Position numbers and translations under genes: made by a program | The notes under the pieces: model-generated | Databases searched by the model: none | The model's input: only the letters and a program-made list of their open reading frames with translations | What the model was told of the DNA's origin: nothing | Assembly: GCF_017357825.1 (NCBI RefSeq) | Contig: NZ_CP046072.1 | Location: forward strand, 186,001-250,000 | Reading direction: 5' to 3' | Length of the DNA stretch: 64,000 bases | Source of the DNA: Sulfurimonas aquatica | GTDB taxonomy: Bacteria; Campylobacterota; Campylobacteria; Campylobacterales; Sulfurimonadaceae | Shown here: in pieces, positions 37,388 through 44,337 of the stretch | How positions within the stretch are numbered: position 1 is the stretch's first letter | How the letters are laid out: every line of letters starts with the position of its first letter

Positions 37388-37927
37388 TTAAAGTTTTTTC
37401 TTTAGCTCTTCTTTTATCCAAGGCCATTCGCCATATCCACTATCACCGTTAATATGTCCTGCGTTTTCAAGAATTTCCATAGGTATGTTTAACTTCTTTT
37501 GTAATCGTTTTGCTTCATCTTCGCTCATATAAGGGTCGTTTGTAGACGCTATTAAAAGGGCTTCTTTTGCATAAAGGTTCTGTGGCAAACTAAGCGGAAA
37601 GAAAGTAGCTAGTTCTGGTATGTAAGTCGTCAGACTTGGTGGTGCTACAAGATAGAGGGTCTCTATGCTTTGCACCTCTTGAGTATTACACAGATGAAAC
37701 CAAAGCGTTGTAGCTAGAGAGTGACAAATAACAATGTCTGGCTTAAACTCTTCAAGTTCTTTTATGAGTTCACCCATCCAAATATCAAGGTTCGGATTTT
37801 CAAAATCACTAAAAGAGAAAAAGCTAACTTTTCCATACTCTTTAGCAATTTCTCCCGCTAGCCAACTCTGCCAATGAGGAAAATTACTCCCACCCCAACC
37901 ATGAAGTAGTAAGACTTTTTTACTCAT
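37388..37927 (-). CDS. RBBP9/YdeN-family alpha/beta hydrolase
   Basis: 179 residues. LLLHGWGGSNFPHWQSWLA at the N-terminus and the nucleophile loop VICHSLATTLW (Ser in CHSLA, a variant of GxSxG) are family signatures. The catalytic His is in NAGHINGDSGYGEWP near the end, and the Asp probably in ASTNDPYMS. Substrate unknown. It overlaps the DUF234 gene by one base. Confidence 0.87.
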   Translation of the reverse strand: MSKKVLLLHGWGGSNFPHWQSWLAGEIAKEYGKVSFFSFSDFENPNLDIWMGELIKELEEFKPDIVICHSLATTLWFHLCNTQEVQSIETLYLVAPPSLTTYIPELATFFPLSLPQNLYAKEALLIASTNDPYMSEDEAKRLQKKLNIPMEILENAGHINGDSGYGEWPWIKEELKKKL

Positions 37928-38739
37928 TACTCTGCTAGCTTCTTAAAGTTTTTTAGTGAGAGTAGTTTTAGATTTTCGCCCTTAAGAGTTTTGAGCTCAT
38001 TAGAAAATCCATTTTTGGAAACGATTACAAATACGTCTGCTTTTATACCTGCTTTTTCACATAGCTCTTCAAGTCGTTTAAGTTCACTTTTTTTGACCTT
38101 GGCGTTTGTGTATTTACAACTTCCAACAACAATCTTTCCAGAAGTAGTAGTTGCATAGATATCTAACTCTATTTCTCTATCCCAATAGCTTGAGATTTCT
38201 TTTATTTTGTCATCAACGAATGTAAGTTTGAGTAGTTCATGGGAGAGTTCTATATAGGTTAAGTTGACAAACTCAGCTTCTCTATTAGCAAATCTTTTAA
38301 TGATTTCATCATAATTTCCATCACGAATACCTTTAAAAAGAGGAGAAACAAATGCGAACCAAAAACGTAGAAAAGGCGTTGTAAAAAAGAGTTTGTTGTC
38401 TATCTTCTCGTTTTCACTCCAAGAGGTAAAAACTTTTTTAGATTTCTCAACTCTAATGATACCTCTTTGTACGAGTTCCTCAACAGCGTTTAATCCAGCT
38501 TCTTCATCAATTTTTGCGCGTTTAAACGTAGAGTGAGTTTTACCATCACCCATAGATATACCCGTTAAAATAGAGTGGTAAACTGGCGCTCCAGAAGTTA
38601 GTTCACTCACATCATTTCGTATGTATCTATAATCACTCAGTATAAGCTCTTGTATAAGATCCATAGACGCTTTAGAAGTGTCAACTTTACCCCAACCAAC
38701 GCCACCAAAGATGGCAAACTTTTCTACTGCGTCTTCCAT
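37927..38739 (-). CDS. Stand-alone DUF234-type (PD-(D/E)XK-like) protein without its ATPase domain
   Basis: 270 residues matching the C-terminal half of archaeal-type ATPases: a winged-helix region (about 20-115) followed by a DUF234 domain. The putative nuclease core appears as REIELDIYATTTSGKIVVGSCKY, i.e. E-(x)-ELDI-(x)-CKY, similar to the PD-(D/E)XK pattern. The usual N-terminal P-loop ATPase is missing; no upstream fragment remains in the 100-base gap. Function unknown; the nuclease label is inference. Confidence 0.7.
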   Translation of the reverse strand: MEDAVEKFAIFGGVGWGKVDTSKASMDLIQELILSDYRYIRNDVSELTSGAPVYHSILTGISMGDGKTHSTFKRAKIDEEAGLNAVEELVQRGIIRVEKSKKVFTSWSENEKIDNKLFFTTPFLRFWFAFVSPLFKGIRDGNYDEIIKRFANREAEFVNLTYIELSHELLKLTFVDDKIKEISSYWDREIELDIYATTTSGKIVVGSCKYTNAKVKKSELKRLEELCEKAGIKADVFVIVSKNGFSNELKTLKGENLKLLSLKNFKKLAE

Positions 38740-38841: not shown

Positions 38842-39237
38842 TTATACAGGAATATTACTCTCTTTTTTGAGATAAGGATTCATCTGAGAAACTGCTTCTA
38901 ACGCTAGGGGAAGCTGTTGCGGTTCCAATAAAAAAGAGTTTACCCCTAAGTCAATCAATCCTCCGATTTTTTCTTCATCACTCGTTAAAACAAATGCAAC
39001 TTGTACTTGTGTAGGTTTCATCTGTTTAATTTGCTTTATAAAAGTTGTTCCATAAATAGGGTCTGTACCAATATCTTGAATAATAATATCATACTCATTA
39101 GCAAAAATAAGTTTGAGTGCCTTATGTCTATCTGGAGCAACATCAGCCTTATTAAACAAATCAGCAAATACGTCTGAAGATGTATCAAAGATAGAGTTTT
39201 CATCTTTTATAAAAAGTATATTCCATTTTTTATTCAT
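38842..39237 (-). CDS. Single-domain response regulator beside the AAA fusion gene
   Basis: 131-residue receiver-like protein. Phosphoacceptor Asp in YDIIIQDIGTDP near residue 56; the conserved Thr/Ser in AFVLTSDEE. The last conserved Lys of receivers appears replaced in FLLEPQQL. No output domain. It starts 29 bases after the end of the AAA fusion gene on the same strand and is probably co-transcribed, so it may report a signal to that machine. Confidence 0.72.
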   Translation of the reverse strand: MNKKWNILFIKDENSIFDTSSDVFADLFNKADVAPDRHKALKLIFANEYDIIIQDIGTDPIYGTTFIKQIKQMKPTQVQVAFVLTSDEEKIGGLIDLGVNSFLLEPQQLPLALEAVSQMNPYLKKESNIPV

Positions 39238-39265
39238 TCATTTTCCTTTATTCTTCAAGCGAGCC

Positions 39266-41965
39266 TTATCTCGCTAATATCTCATCAAGCTCATCTGCAT
39301 AAATAATCTCTTTTTCAAGAAGTAATTTTGATAAGTTTTCTATAGTTTCCCAATTCTCATTTACTAAGTCTATAATGCTTTTTTCACCCTCAAGCATCCA
39401 ACGCTCAAGTGCGGCATCAATCTTTGAATGATAATGTTCAGTTGATTTAGTACTGATAGTATGACCTTGAGCATCCATAACGCCATTGATATTGATGTAT
39501 CCTACCTCTTTATCCATGCCATAGTGTGCTATAGCTTTATAAGCATCACGTGTCGCTTGTTGTAAGTCGTTTGCCGCACCGGTGTCTATTCCGTCAATCT
39601 CACCAAAACGTTTAATCTGTGCGGTTCTTCCCGCTAAAGAGACAGATATTTTGTCTTTAAAGTCTTTAACCGTCATGTTGTCTTGAACGTCATTATAGTT
39701 ATTTGAAATAAAGTGTTCGTTATTATCTCTTGGCGTTAAACTAACGTGTTCTATATGCACATGAGGCATTAAGATTTTAGAAGCAACGGCACGTCCAGCT
39801 TCATAGACTGATGTCTCTTCAAATATCTGCTCAAGTGATAAGTAAGTCTGCTTCTCACCATACTTGATTGCGTTTATCTGCTCTATTAGTATCTCCTGCG
39901 TTATAGCAGGTAGAGCATTACGTAGACAGTAAAATGAAGCCTCTTTACTAAGGAGTTCTAGTTGTGCGCCTGTAAATCCCGCAGTATACATTAGGAGTTT
40001 ATTCATATCAAATAAACCAGTGGAAGGTTTGTTTTCAATAGTCTGATCTAGAAAGTATTGTCTTGCATCTTTATCAAGATTGTTTATTTCTATGTGAATC
40101 TCTATTCGCCCTGGTCTTATGATTGCGTCATCAATATTCTCTTTATAGTTTGTCGCAGCTACAACAAAAACATTTTCACCTTTAACATCAGAAAAGCCAT
40201 CCATCTCTGCTAGAAGTTTATTAATAGGCACTTCTCTCTCATTGCCACCACCGCGTTTTCCGATGGTGTCTATCTCATCTATAAATACAATAGAAGGTGC
40301 ATACTCTTTTGCTTTAGAGAATACTTTTTTTGTTTTCGTAGGATCAAGAAGTTCTAATCCTGTAATAGAGATAAATGGAAGTTCTGCTTCTCTAGCAAAA
40401 GCTTTTGCAAGCATTGTTTTACCTGTTCCTGGAGGTCCATAAAGAAGCATACCTTTTGGCGGTGCGATATTAAAGCTTTCAAGGAGTTTTGGCTCTTTAA
40501 AGAAGTTTATGACTTCTCGCAGTCTCTCTTTAGCTTTATAATGACCTGCTATATCATTAAAAGAGACTTTAGGTATGTCAAAAACAAGTCCATCTTCACT
40601 AAAGTCTTTGATTTTCGTCACTTGTTTAAACTTACAAGAAAATACTTTATAACTAATAACTCCGCGTTTATCACTTATGCTATCTTCTAGATCAAGGGTT
40701 ATGTTTTTTCTAAAAAGTTCTTTAACTAGTTTTTCCTCTTCTATAAGAGGATTGACCATATCGTTTAAGAAGTTTATACATGTTTTAGATATAGATACTT
40801 TTATCTCTGTAAATTTATTTACAGGAATCCCAGAATCCATGATATATGCTGTGATTCTATTGAAAAATGTAGTGCTTACCTTATCTTTTATACGTCTAGC
40901 ATCCAGCTCTGGCGCAAAGTTAAGTATCTGCATTTTTAAAAAATCATTGAAGTTTTCACCCGGAGAAAATTCAATGCGATACTTCTCGCTAAAACCATCT
41001 TTATATTTTAAAAATCCTTTTTCTGCTATCTTCTCATATGCATCATAATTTAGCTTGTTAAAAAGACAGATGTTTGCTTGAGAAAACCTAGAAACAAGCT
41101 CTGGTAAAATCGCTTCTTGCCAACCACCACTTCTACTATCGCGTTTAACTTCTCGTCTAATAGCTTCAAGTATCATCGACTCAGCTTGGATGTAGTCTTC
41201 TTTTATAAGATCCTTAAAGCGGTTATCTAGATAGAGTTCTTTACCTAAACTCGTTGTAATGATAAATATAGCTTCTGTGAAATCAACCATATAATTGGCG
41301 TTTTCATCATTGTAGATGATGTCAAGATCTTCGCTACATGCTGCATCTGTGACCTTATCCCAACCACAGTTGTCACGCATCTGGCCACCCTCAAAGATTC
41401 CAAGAAGGTTACTTTGAATGGTGTTATCACACTTCTCAAAAGCGTCGAGTACAATTACGGCCTTTGGGTTTCTGTGGACAAAGCCTGTTAACTGACCAAC
41501 GCCATAGCCTTTCCATCCAGCTGGATAACCATAAAGCTCTCCACCATTTTGTTGGTGGTATTGCGTCATGTCAAATTTCATAATTTTATATTTTGGTAGA
41601 TGCTCACTCATAAGCTCAGCTAAGAATGTCTTACCAGTTGCGGGAGAACCTAAGAAAAGATATGTCGCCTTAGGCGCTTTTTTATTCTCAGTAATGTCAT
41701 TTTTCATACTGTTGACAACAGAATTGATTGCTTGTTCTTGTCCAAAGAGCTCTTTAGAGAGTTGTTCTTTGAGTGTTTTGGCAAATTCTAGTTTGTTATG
41801 CGTTTGGGCAACTGCTAACGCTTCTGCTTCATCTTCTTCGTCTTTGTCTTCAAACTTCTCTACTGCTGATTGGGCTAACTCTTTTAAAGCTTTTTGCTTA
41901 TTTTCTTTTTCTTCTCTTTCATGTTTTTCTACTGCAGCTTGGGCAAGTTCTCTTAAATTTGGCAT
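39266..41965 (-). CDS. Double AAA+ protein: ClpB-like domain fused to FtsH-like AAA and inactive peptidase
   Basis: 899 residues, no transmembrane segment. Residues 1-50 contain a repeated ELAQxAVEK motif. A ClpB/Clp-D2-like AAA domain spans about 70-350: Walker A GSPATGKT at 106-113 is intact, but Walker B reads VLDAFEK at 173-179, with Ala for the catalytic Glu. A second AAA domain of FtsH type spans about 465-690, with Walker A GPPGTGKT (510-517), IVFIDEID and IRPGR intact. The FtsH peptidase fold follows, but HEAGH is YEAGR at 721-725, so both zinc His are lost while the later GAANDL remains. It likely remodels or binds proteins without degrading them; function is inferred. Confidence 0.85.
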   Translation of the reverse strand: MPNLRELAQAAVEKHEREEKENKQKALKELAQSAVEKFEDKDEEDEAEALAVAQTHNKLEFAKTLKEQLSKELFGQEQAINSVVNSMKNDITENKKAPKATYLFLGSPATGKTFLAELMSEHLPKYKIMKFDMTQYHQQNGGELYGYPAGWKGYGVGQLTGFVHRNPKAVIVLDAFEKCDNTIQSNLLGIFEGGQMRDNCGWDKVTDAACSEDLDIIYNDENANYMVDFTEAIFIITTSLGKELYLDNRFKDLIKEDYIQAESMILEAIRREVKRDSRSGGWQEAILPELVSRFSQANICLFNKLNYDAYEKIAEKGFLKYKDGFSEKYRIEFSPGENFNDFLKMQILNFAPELDARRIKDKVSTTFFNRITAYIMDSGIPVNKFTEIKVSISKTCINFLNDMVNPLIEEEKLVKELFRKNITLDLEDSISDKRGVISYKVFSCKFKQVTKIKDFSEDGLVFDIPKVSFNDIAGHYKAKERLREVINFFKEPKLLESFNIAPPKGMLLYGPPGTGKTMLAKAFAREAELPFISITGLELLDPTKTKKVFSKAKEYAPSIVFIDEIDTIGKRGGGNEREVPINKLLAEMDGFSDVKGENVFVVAATNYKENIDDAIIRPGRIEIHIEINNLDKDARQYFLDQTIENKPSTGLFDMNKLLMYTAGFTGAQLELLSKEASFYCLRNALPAITQEILIEQINAIKYGEKQTYLSLEQIFEETSVYEAGRAVASKILMPHVHIEHVSLTPRDNNEHFISNNYNDVQDNMTVKDFKDKISVSLAGRTAQIKRFGEIDGIDTGAANDLQQATRDAYKAIAHYGMDKEVGYININGVMDAQGHTISTKSTEHYHSKIDAALERWMLEGEKSIIDLVNENWETIENLSKLLLEKEIIYADELDEILAR

Positions 41966-42139: not shown

Positions 42140-42541
42140 TTAGTGAGCATGTCCAAGATGAAGAGCAGCCTCTGTATCCCATTTTGAGATATGTAAAATT
42201 AACCACTTTTTAAACTCGTTTTCTAAAAAGCCCTGAAGCTCAATAGGACTTTTAATAGCTAACCATCTCTCAAAATATTTTGCTAGTTTTTCTCTCATAG
42301 TATCATGGTCGCTTTTATGTACTTGATAATAGCCATAATTATTTTGCAACATCATATTCTCTTCTTCTTGAAAGTGGTCTTCTACGTCAAATAAAACAAC
42401 TTTGAAAAGTTCATCGATTTTTTCTATATCTTTTGCAACGACTGCATCGTGAAAATCATTGATAACCTCTATCTCTTCTTCATGTAACATATTCATTACT
42501 TCATTTGCAACTTGTTGTATATCTTGTATTTTAATTAGCAT
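42140..42541 (-). CDS. Bacteriohemerythrin 1
   Basis: 133-residue four-helix protein that binds O2 at a di-iron site. Ligand motifs: NDFHDAV near residue 31, DVEDHFQEEENMM (HxxxE) near 56, VHKSDHD near 74, and HISKWD near 116. Hemerythrins are common in epsilonproteobacteria for oxygen storage or sensing. It is single-domain and monocistronic, 167 bases from the upstream hypothetical gene. Confidence 0.85.
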   Translation of the reverse strand: MLIKIQDIQQVANEVMNMLHEEEIEVINDFHDAVVAKDIEKIDELFKVVLFDVEDHFQEEENMMLQNNYGYYQVHKSDHDTMREKLAKYFERWLAIKSPIELQGFLENEFKKWLILHISKWDTEAALHLGHAH

Positions 42542-42612: not shown

Positions 42613-42708
42613 TTATAGCCAATAACGCGGATAGTGTCTTTTAGGTTGTGCATGCTCTGCTTGTGGCATGTCATAAATGAAGATTGCCGTTGTTTCAAAA
42701 GAACCCAC
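42613..42708 (-). CDS. Possible 31-residue peptide coupled to the upstream gene
   Basis: GTG at 42708 overlaps the TAG stop of the preceding gene (TAGTG). The frame runs GSFETTAIFIYDMPQ, then a His/Pro/Arg-rich end (PKRHYPRYWL). The composition and the start-stop coupling hint at real coding, but there is no homologue I recognise and no good ribosome site. Confidence 0.28.
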   Translation of the reverse strand: MGSFETTAIFIYDMPQAEHAQPKRHYPRYWL

Positions 42709-43169
42709 TAAGCGTACTCTTGCTCTAGCTTTTTTATTAACTCAATCTCCCTTTGTGATGCTACGGTTGCTTTTAAATAGTTCCAAAATTTTTTTGCTTC
42801 AAGAGTTACTTCTATCCATTCTGGATCTTCTAAAATGTCTCTAGGGTCTTCACTCGGCTCAATGTATAGATATGCAAGTTGGTGAAACTTACTGGCATTA
42901 TCGACCTCTTCTTGTGAAACATTAGCACTTTTAAGGGCTTTTGCATAAGTGTCATCTAGTGCTAATATGTCAAAGTAAGAAGAGAGACACTCTTCAAATG
43001 AAGAAAACCAAGGTTCATCATTAGGCCAAGTAGTCTCAGAAGCTTCAATCCATGACATCTTTTGCAGTTTTAAATTTGAGAATTCAAAAACAGAATGAAT
43101 CCAAAAAAGTCTCCATCTCTGTTTTAGTTCTACATCACTGATATCATCTTGCATATTTGCCATTAACAT
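42708..43169 (-). CDS. Hypothetical protein, Trp-rich, helical
   Basis: 153 residues. I do not recognise a family. It is acidic, with many Trp and Phe (RWRLFWIHSVFEFSNL, WNYLKATV), predicted mostly helical and soluble. Starts are possible at 43169 or a few codons in (MLMANM). It lies between two hemerythrin/repeat-protein genes and is divergent from the repeat-protein gene. No function assigned. Confidence 0.65.
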   Translation of the reverse strand: MLMANMQDDISDVELKQRWRLFWIHSVFEFSNLKLQKMSWIEASETTWPNDEPWFSSFEECLSSYFDILALDDTYAKALKSANVSQEEVDNASKFHQLAYLYIEPSEDPRDILEDPEWIEVTLEAKKFWNYLKATVASQREIELIKKLEQEYA

Positions 43170-43370
43170 TTAGTACTTTTCTCCATGCTTTTTTTTATGT
43201 TTTAAAAATTATAGCACTTTAACATATTCCTAATTCTTTATACAGTACTTTTATCTTTTTAAATATTTTTGACTACTATATCTCATCCTTAAATATTTAA
43301 GAGATTAAAAGCTACAATTGCTCAATTGATTCATATAAAAATAAATAAAAACTATAAGGGTAAAAATACA

Positions 43371-43895
43371 ATGAACATGGAAGCTTTACAATTAGTACAA
43401 GATGAAAATGCATCTGCTGAGACTTTAGAAAAACTGAGTGAAGAAGAAAATCCATTTGTGAGAGTAAGAGTAGCTGCTCATGCAAATGTATCTGCACAAA
43501 CACTAGAAAAGTTGGGTAGAGATGAGACACCTTTAGTAAAACAGTTTGTTGCAGAGCATTTAAACACACCAAAAGATACATTGGTGGAACTAAGTAAAGA
43601 TAGTGATTATGGGTATTGGGTTGGTGGAAATCCAAACACTCCTGTAGATATTTTAAATAAACTTAGTAAGCATGAGGATGAAAATGTTCGTTCATCAGTT
43701 GCAGTGAATCCAAATATACCTGTAACTACCTTAGCTATACTCTGTTGTGATGAAAATGAAGATGTTAGAGCAGCCGTTGCAAAAAATCTAGAAACGCCAG
43801 TTGCAATTTTAGGTAAGTTAAGTCAAGATGACTCGTTAAGTGTAAGAGAAGCCGTGAGTAAAAATCCAAATAGACCATCTAAAACAAAGGAATAA
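43371..43895 (+). CDS. Variant leucine-rich (LRV/HEAT-like) repeat protein
   Basis: 174 residues from ATG 43371 (AAGGG upstream; an in-frame TTG at 43326 is less likely). Nearly the whole protein is six repeats of about 24-25 residues, with the pattern d..VR..VA.NpnxP...L..Ls.De, for example NEDVRAAVAKN and DENVRSSVAVN. This matches the LRV alpha-helical solenoid, likely a protein-binding scaffold. The iron-sulfur N-terminus of the Azotobacter LRV protein is missing. The hemerythrin gene begins 4 bases after its stop, so both are co-translated. Confidence 0.78.
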   Translation: MNMEALQLVQDENASAETLEKLSEEENPFVRVRVAAHANVSAQTLEKLGRDETPLVKQFVAEHLNTPKDTLVELSKDSDYGYWVGGNPNTPVDILNKLSKHEDENVRSSVAVNPNIPVTTLAILCCDENEDVRAAVAKNLETPVAILGKLSQDDSLSVREAVSKNPNRPSKTKE

Positions 43896-43899
43896 TATT

Positions 43900-44337
43900 T
43901 TGATTTCACCAGATAAATTACCAATGGTAGAAACAGCGAGTATGAATGATACTCATTTTGATACGATTTTACTTATAAATAAACTCTCTACTGCAGTAGA
44001 TGCTAAAGATATCAATAGCATAAGTGAACTTTTTATAGAACTAATAGAACATACTGAGCAGCATTGCAAAAATGAAGAAGAGATGATGATAGAGAAAAAA
44101 TTCCCTCCTTATCCTGCACATAAAGAAGAGCATGACTTAGCTCTAGATGATATGCGAAATGCCGCGTTAAAGTTCACTGAGACAAAAGACATAGATGCAG
44201 TTAAGAAGTATGTGGATCTAAATTTAGCTCCTTGGTTTTTACAGCACACTGAAACTATGGATGCTGTTACTTCAATGTTTTTAGAAAATAGTGAGCTTCA
44301 CCGTGTCTATTGGGATCGATTAGTACCAAGAAAATAA
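43900..44337 (+). CDS. Bacteriohemerythrin 2
   Basis: 145 residues. Di-iron ligand motifs: NDTHFDTILLI near residue 18, IEHTEQHCKNEEEMM near 50, AHKEEHD near 72, and LQHTETMD near 112. TTG at 43900 has AAAGGA nine bases upstream, while the in-frame ATG at 43924 has none, so I prefer the TTG start. It is co-transcribed with the LRV repeat protein, suggesting a shared oxygen-related function. It is a distant paralogue of the hemerythrin at 42140. Confidence 0.82.
   Translation: MISPDKLPMVETASMNDTHFDTILLINKLSTAVDAKDINSISELFIELIEHTEQHCKNEEEMMIEKKFPPYPAHKEEHDLALDDMRNAALKFTETKDIDAVKKYVDLNLAPWFLQHTETMDAVTSMFLENSELHRVYWDRLVPRK

Follow-up and report, generated by a model that had tools for sequence, protein, structure and literature searches.

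The 64,000-nucleotide window of Sulfurimonas aquatica DNA considered here (NZ_CP046072.1, positions 186,001 to 250,000; unlabelled coordinates below are those of the window) encodes on its minus strand, at 39266..41965, an 899-residue protein in which a ClpA/B-type AAA ring, an FtsH-type AAA ring and an M41 peptidase fold are joined, and in which the first ring and the peptidase both appear catalytically dead (the description draws on the open reading frame, profile matches, an AlphaFold 2 model and fold matches). There is a strong gene association between this dead fusion and a five-subunit type of 2-oxoacid:ferredoxin oxidoreductase (OFOR). How do some bacteria run the oxygen-sensitive reverse tricarboxylic acid (TCA) cycle in fully oxic water? 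To that open question the present analysis brings a conserved accessory, a doubly dead AAA+ pseudoprotease tracking five-subunit OFOR across Sulfurimonas, Sulfuricurvum and Sulfurovum, together with a list of small uncharacterised proteins that travel with it. The evidence suggests that the fusion helps to build, hold or protect oxygen-tolerant CO2-fixing enzymes. The reading we favour, to which we would grant an even chance, is that of a conserved two-ring AAA+ pseudoprotease within a gene set for the reverse TCA cycle under oxygen, its role being ATP-driven holding or remodelling with OFOR subunits or intermediates as the likeliest clients.

Domains and catalytic residues of the fusion

The initial annotation, made from sequence alone, had described a soluble fusion of Clp-type AAA, FtsH-type AAA and peptidase fold outside any named family, and the fusion has proved to be just that, and conserved. 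Profile matches place AAA_2 (PF07724, 3.2e-22) at residues 98-295, AAA (5e-41) at residues 506-628 and Peptidase_M41 (PF01434, 1e-23; 84 bits for a cut-off of 29.9) at residues 718-896. Among the matches listed no NCBIfam model reached its cut-off, the FtsH model TIGR01241 (residues 465-893) scoring 300.9 bits, far under the 600 required; there was no Clp_N domain among the 25 matches listed, and the profile search of domains found no DNA-binding domain. In the AlphaFold 2 model (from a 44-sequence alignment; mean predicted local distance difference test score, pLDDT, 81; predicted template modelling score 0.52) residues 467-889 match the FtsH fold with a Z of 32.5 (7zbh_A), and residues from about 40 to 435 match the second-ring structures of ClpB, ClpC and Skd3 with a Z of about 24.6. 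A membrane anchor is absent, as had been claimed, the best 19-residue hydropathy being 0.92 versus 2.88 for the FtsH of the same genome.

The first ring, D1, of ClpA/B D2 type by profile and alignment (residues 57-372; 40850..41797, minus strand), is preceded by an extension (residues 1-56; 41798..41965, minus strand) predicted to be a long helix with a repeated ELAQ[AS]AVEK motif. Walker A, the arginine finger, sensor 2 and the aromatic pore loop (Trp within GWKG/GWSG) are all present in D1; the sensor-1 Asn is gone, as is the catalytic Glu of Walker B (VIVLDAFEK at 41432..41458, minus strand), residue 175 being Ala in its place. In D2, the FtsH-type ring (residues 456-705; 39851..40600, minus strand), Walker A and B, sensor 1 and the arginine fingers are intact, and FtsH pore loop 1 (FVG) has been deleted, leaving a gap of seven alignment columns (segment 40331..40366, minus strand). 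The view that D2 looks active can thus stand as regards ATP hydrolysis, the catalytic residues being in place, but not as regards threading, given the loss of the pore loop. The pseudo-M41 domain (residues 706-899; 39269..39850, minus strand) retains the second Asp ligand (ANDL) and reads YEAGR at the HEXXH site (residues 721-725; 39791..39805, minus strand). The pore-loop deletion was absent from the initial annotation, as were the hemerythrin partner and the OFOR link described below.

D2 and the M41 domain resemble FtsH and the i-AAA and m-AAA metalloproteases (M41) in fold and motif layout, from which the fusion differs in having an extra Clp-type ring and in lacking a membrane segment, pore loop 1 and HEXXH. 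D1 is likewise akin in sequence (ClpA TIGR02639, 1.5e-29) and fold to the second ring of ClpA, ClpB, ClpC and Skd3, and a ClpS-like gene is often nearby; unlike the rings of ClpA and ClpB, however, it has no Walker B Glu, is coupled to an FtsH ring and comes without the Clp N domain. FtsH pseudoproteases are not without precedent: in the chloroplast Ycf2-FtsHi motor the pseudoproteases FtsHi1, 2, 4 and 5, which work together with FtsH12, have mutated HEXXH motifs and a non-proteolytic ATPase task (PMC8197885). The fusion shares with FtsHi a mutated HEXXH in a domain conserved under selection, and 8xku and 8xqw are among its structural matches; in contrast to that membrane-bound, hetero-oligomeric import motor, it is soluble, bacterial and furnished with a Clp-type ring. 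It may be regarded as a predicted bacterial soluble counterpart of the chloroplast FtsHi pseudoproteases and, at the same time, as a putative natural Walker B trap.

Descent and selection

Scanning 84,980 species genomes with an alignment of D1 plus linker yielded 66 loci, which fall mainly into three clades: clade A (25 sequences from Sulfurimonas, Sulfuricurvum and some Sulfurovum, the HEXXH site being mostly YE[AS]GR), clade B (17 from Sulfurovum, with [RK]EA[AS][HQ]) and a HEXXH-bearing clade C from Campylobacterota and marine Gammaproteobacteria. An N-terminal extension of some kind is found in clade A but not in clade B. Clades A and B comprise the 42 dead-type fusions of Sulfurimonas, Sulfuricurvum and Sulfurovum, a few entries being near-duplicates from metagenome-assembled genomes (MAGs) or partial sequences. 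In all 42 the D1 Walker B Glu is replaced by Ala or Ser, D2 pore loop 1 is missing, and the D1 Walker A Lys, arginine finger, sensor 2 Arg and pore Trp are present. The first His of HEXXH has gone from each of the 40 members covering the site, which bears out the proposed pseudoprotease, and the D2 Walker B DE is present in 41 of 41 covered; no clade A member has the D1 sensor-1 Asn, and 13 of the 17 in clade B lack it too. With Walker A Lys kept and Walker B Glu lost so uniformly, sequence also supports the suggestion that D1 binds ATP and hydrolyses it poorly.

Clade C has the same domain order; all 23 of its members have an intact HEXXH, and 18 of them the D1 Walker B Glu. The possibility had been raised that homologues would turn up with both an intact HEXXH and a membrane segment. 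Those with HEXXH do exist, two of them in S. aquatica itself (full length, HEAGH and D1 Walker B intact, 43% and 37% identity), but they are soluble too, and so reveal the ancestry of the dead fusion without undermining the pseudoprotease idea. In the tree clades A and B form one clade (Shimodaira-Hasegawa-like approximate likelihood ratio support 100) nested among HEXXH-bearing enzymes, from which it follows that the losses most simply happened once, the two dead lines diverging later; as pore loop 1 is missing from 20 of the 23 clade C members as well, its loss probably preceded that of catalysis. By this sequence evidence the dead clade is of single origin among soluble proteases that appear to be active. 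No published description of a Clp/FtsH fusion was found in the literature searched, nor a published name for clade C.

Might the gene simply be decaying, or an artefact of assembly, catalytic residues having been lost? That notion is already refuted and merits next to no credence. The domain and motif features recur across clade A (25 sequences) and clade B (17), by which chance and assembly error are excluded, the frame is open in many genomes, and Walker A, the arginine finger and the pore Trp are invariant. Further, the ratio of non-synonymous to synonymous substitution in close pairs is about 0.03 for D1 (residues 57-310), 0.04 for D2, 0.08 for the linker and 0.09 for M41, values that are approximate as synonymous distances exceed 1. 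Purifying selection acts on each of the ordered domains and the gene is not decaying; the lowest ratio is that of D1, the very ring expected not to hydrolyse ATP.

That S. aquatica encodes the two active paralogues would lend itself to another scheme, in which the dead fusion poisons or tunes them through mixed hexamers. The other eight fusion-bearing genomes among the relatives searched show no active paralogue, however, so that such poisoning cannot be the general role, and we consider the scheme very improbable.

Co-occurrence with five-subunit oxidoreductases

The link to OFOR came from the neighbourhoods of an unlinked partner of about 100 residues, which contain divergent OFOR operons with an extra PF02552-like subunit; that subunit served as marker for the five-subunit type. 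Among 60 relatives the marker is present in 8 of the 9 genomes with the fusion and in 0 of the 51 others (Fisher test 3.5e-9, uncorrected for kinship of the genomes), the lone fusion genome without it, G003, being a MAG of 82% completeness; the marker is present in its close relative G009. In the genomes behind the collected loci it accompanies the dead fusion in 33 of 33 and the active fusion in 0 of 15, these loci having been collected by means of the fusion itself, and pooling gives 41 of 42 dead-fusion genomes against 0 of 66 without. In a scan of 397 Campylobacterota genomes the marker turned up in only two, each of which also carries the dead fusion (scoring was confined to the three best candidates from each genome, so weak matches may be missed). 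Mapped on a tree of FtsH genes from the genus, the fusion state changes five times, at least three of these changes having good branch support, and the marker never shifts in the opposite direction.

Physical linkage points in the same direction. In Sulfurovum sp. AR the fusion is situated between both OFOR operons, the order being OFOR operon, trigger factor, leucine-rich repeat (LRR) protein, globin, LRV repeat protein, ribbon-helix-helix (RHH) protein, fusion, hemerythrin, ClpS-like protein, globin, receiver, two further genes (which we take to be a DabA/DabB-type carbon uptake pair) and second OFOR operon. OFOR subunit genes are within 10 kb of the fusion in about five clade A loci. It is on patchy co-occurrence, the contrast of dead with active clade and linkage, summed, that the association rests.

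Molari et al. (2023) described five-subunit 2-oxoglutarate and pyruvate:ferredoxin oxidoreductases in oxic-plume Sulfurimonas, showed that their genes are syntenic in Sulfurovum AR and Aquificales, and proposed that these enzymes, potentially of an oxygen-tolerant type, permit the reverse TCA cycle in oxygen (PMC10066037). Because the subunit content matches and Sulfurovum AR is common to both data sets, the operons seen here are probably of that same type. Their paper points to the oxidoreductases, hemerythrins and oxidases, and its text makes no mention of FtsH or Clp (PMC10066037).

Clp rings with a mutated Walker B Glu are stable ATP-bound substrate traps, and it is from this, coupled with the poor hydrolysis expected of D1, that we infer a holding or remodelling machine. 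The protein would probably assemble as a hexamer, D1 binding ATP, hydrolysing it poorly and gripping the client by its Trp pore loops in the manner of such trap mutants. D2 would hydrolyse ATP and, being without pore loop 1, reset or release the client instead of threading it, and the dead M41 disc, with zinc ligands gone, would serve as a base. Subunits or assembly intermediates of the five-subunit pyruvate and 2-oxoglutarate:ferredoxin oxidoreductases would be the likeliest clients, with hemerythrin and globin lowering oxygen locally and the ClpS-like protein as a possible adaptor. A stronger version has perhaps one chance in three or a shade better. In it the fusion would be a dedicated AAA+ factor for assembly, holding or repair of OFOR, and its naturally fixed Walker B trap ring, seated on an inactive FtsH base, would allow the reverse TCA cycle to run despite oxygen. 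The comparison there is with the Rubisco activases CbbX and CbbQO, AAA+ proteins dedicated to an enzyme of CO2 fixation; the analogy is of role only, since the AAA clades and the enzyme are different and remodelling by the fusion is hypothetical. If the fusion does serve OFOR, a second major class of CO2-fixing enzyme would have its remodelling factor.

Several considerations weigh against an OFOR-serving role. Genome counts are phylogenetically non-independent and the association could stem from shared niche or island transfer; the kinship-corrected pair test has three pairs only (p 0.25), which puts significance out of reach. In S. aquatica the OFOR operons are unlinked to the fusion, being about 0.75 to 2 Mb away by arc. 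Aquificales possess the same oxidoreductase type (PMC10066037) and yet the scan of species-genome contigs yielded no Aquificota relative of the fusion, so it is not generally required. The missing pore loop, moreover, makes a threading role for D2 doubtful.

The main rival accepts that the fusion belongs to the aerobic reverse TCA gene set and sees in it a general factor that serves proteostasis or holds aggregates in cells living at high oxygen, OFOR not being a special client. Such a role would suit a set that includes hemerythrins, truncated globins, LRV and LRR repeat proteins, ClpS-like protein, trigger factor and SelO, and whose members are dispersed across the S. aquatica genome; the near-perfect correspondence of marker and fusion, and the OFOR operons on both sides of it in Sulfurovum sp. 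AR, speak against it, and we would put it at about one chance in four. As a separate observation, one OFOR operon is duplicated almost identically, with about 25 kb separating the copies (L158, L159; S. aquatica 2216000-2250000).

Neighbouring genes and other relatives

The bacteriohemerythrin gene upstream of the fusion (42140..42541, minus strand; profile match) has close relatives in 9 of the 9 fusion genomes and 0 of the 51 others, on a different contig from the fusion in G006; of the 25 clade A loci, 21 have a member of the hemerythrin family no more than 1 kb from the fusion, the genes being arranged in at least three ways. Beyond it a 153-residue protein of the same gene set with no assigned function (42708..43169, minus strand) is found in 4/5 fusion genomes, 0/32 others and 9/25 clade A loci. 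An LRV/HEAT-like repeat protein of uncertain start codon (43326..43895, plus strand; profile match; 11/25 clade A loci) and a second hemerythrin type (43900..44337, plus strand) follow. The RHH protein is in 5/5 fusion genomes versus 0/32 others and is unlinked in three. Recurrent near the fusion are ClpS-like protein (PF02617, 3.6e-19; 11/25 clade A loci), truncated globins, receiver, LRV repeats and SelO.

The protein of about 100 residues adjoins the fusion in clade B, is found in 8/9 fusion genomes versus 0/51 others, and is located away from the fusion in most Sulfurimonas genomes having both. Its model (cluster 4) is alpha-beta-beta-beta-alpha with a pLDDT of 74, and against the PDB its best fold match had an E-value of 0.096, too weak to be meaningful. 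Members of the family (L126:7647-7952 and relatives) are often in tandem pairs.

Downstream of the fusion, after a gap of 28 nt, is an atypical lone receiver (38842..39237, minus strand; profile match and alignment) in which the phospho-acceptor Asp is retained and Glu stands in for the Lys of the KPF motif, this conserved Lys being absent across the receiver family. Close relatives are present in 7/9 fusion-bearing genomes. Control of the fusion by the receiver, as first suggested, is possible, if weakly supported: of the 25 clade A loci, 15 have a related receiver near the fusion (6 of them at no more than 1 kb), and in clade B none is nearby apart from one generic receiver. It does raise the thought that the fusion is a passenger or regulator in an aerobic island spread by horizontal transfer. 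It would then be a signalling scaffold responsive to oxygen, working with the hemerythrin, the receiver or the PP2C-kinase of clade B and acting on expression, not on the assembly of enzymes. The frequent receiver, a PP2C-Ser/Thr kinase directly upstream of the fusion in clade B (6 of 17 loci) and an RHH protein in the gene set would be in keeping with this; a receiver deprived of its Lys, a fusion with no DNA-binding domain and the fact that D1 is its most conserved part would not, and we deem it improbable. The PP2C phosphatase is fused to the Ser/Thr kinase (e.g. L082:8126-9805). A DUF234 or weak Mrr-like nuclease fragment (37927-38739, minus strand) separates the receiver from a serine hydrolase.

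Three other associations were tried and rejected. Nitrogen fixation, hinted at by LRV and hemerythrin neighbours, fails in that nifH is absent from S. aquatica and does not track the fusion; for anti-phage defence, the PADLOC matches (IetA, DolB) are generic AAA and only the active paralogues adjoin TIR/STAND genes; for plasmid mobility, a PLSDB search gave no match.

The two soluble HEXXH-bearing fusion proteases of S. aquatica (L006:6782-9328 and L007:7583-10492, at about 1.816 and 1.851 Mb of the chromosome) both adjoin TIR, STAND/NACHT and DUF4062 proteins, as in candidate defence islands. Directly upstream of active members a YbjN-like protein of about 170 residues is encoded in 11 of 23 loci (e.g. 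L102:3220-3738), in which respect clade C is unlike the dead fusion; it is likely a partner or adaptor of the active fusions. Decay has taken the reverse course in two distant relatives (L050:6582-8945 and L051:6926-9310), HEXXH being retained while the D2 Walker B has become EG and the D1 pore loop is deleted. S. aquatica has in addition a second FtsH-like paralogue (L009:4169-5845, about 1.27 Mb) with an N-terminal hydrophobic stretch and YQAAK in place of HEXXH, and matches of similar length to it are present in most of the 60 relatives.

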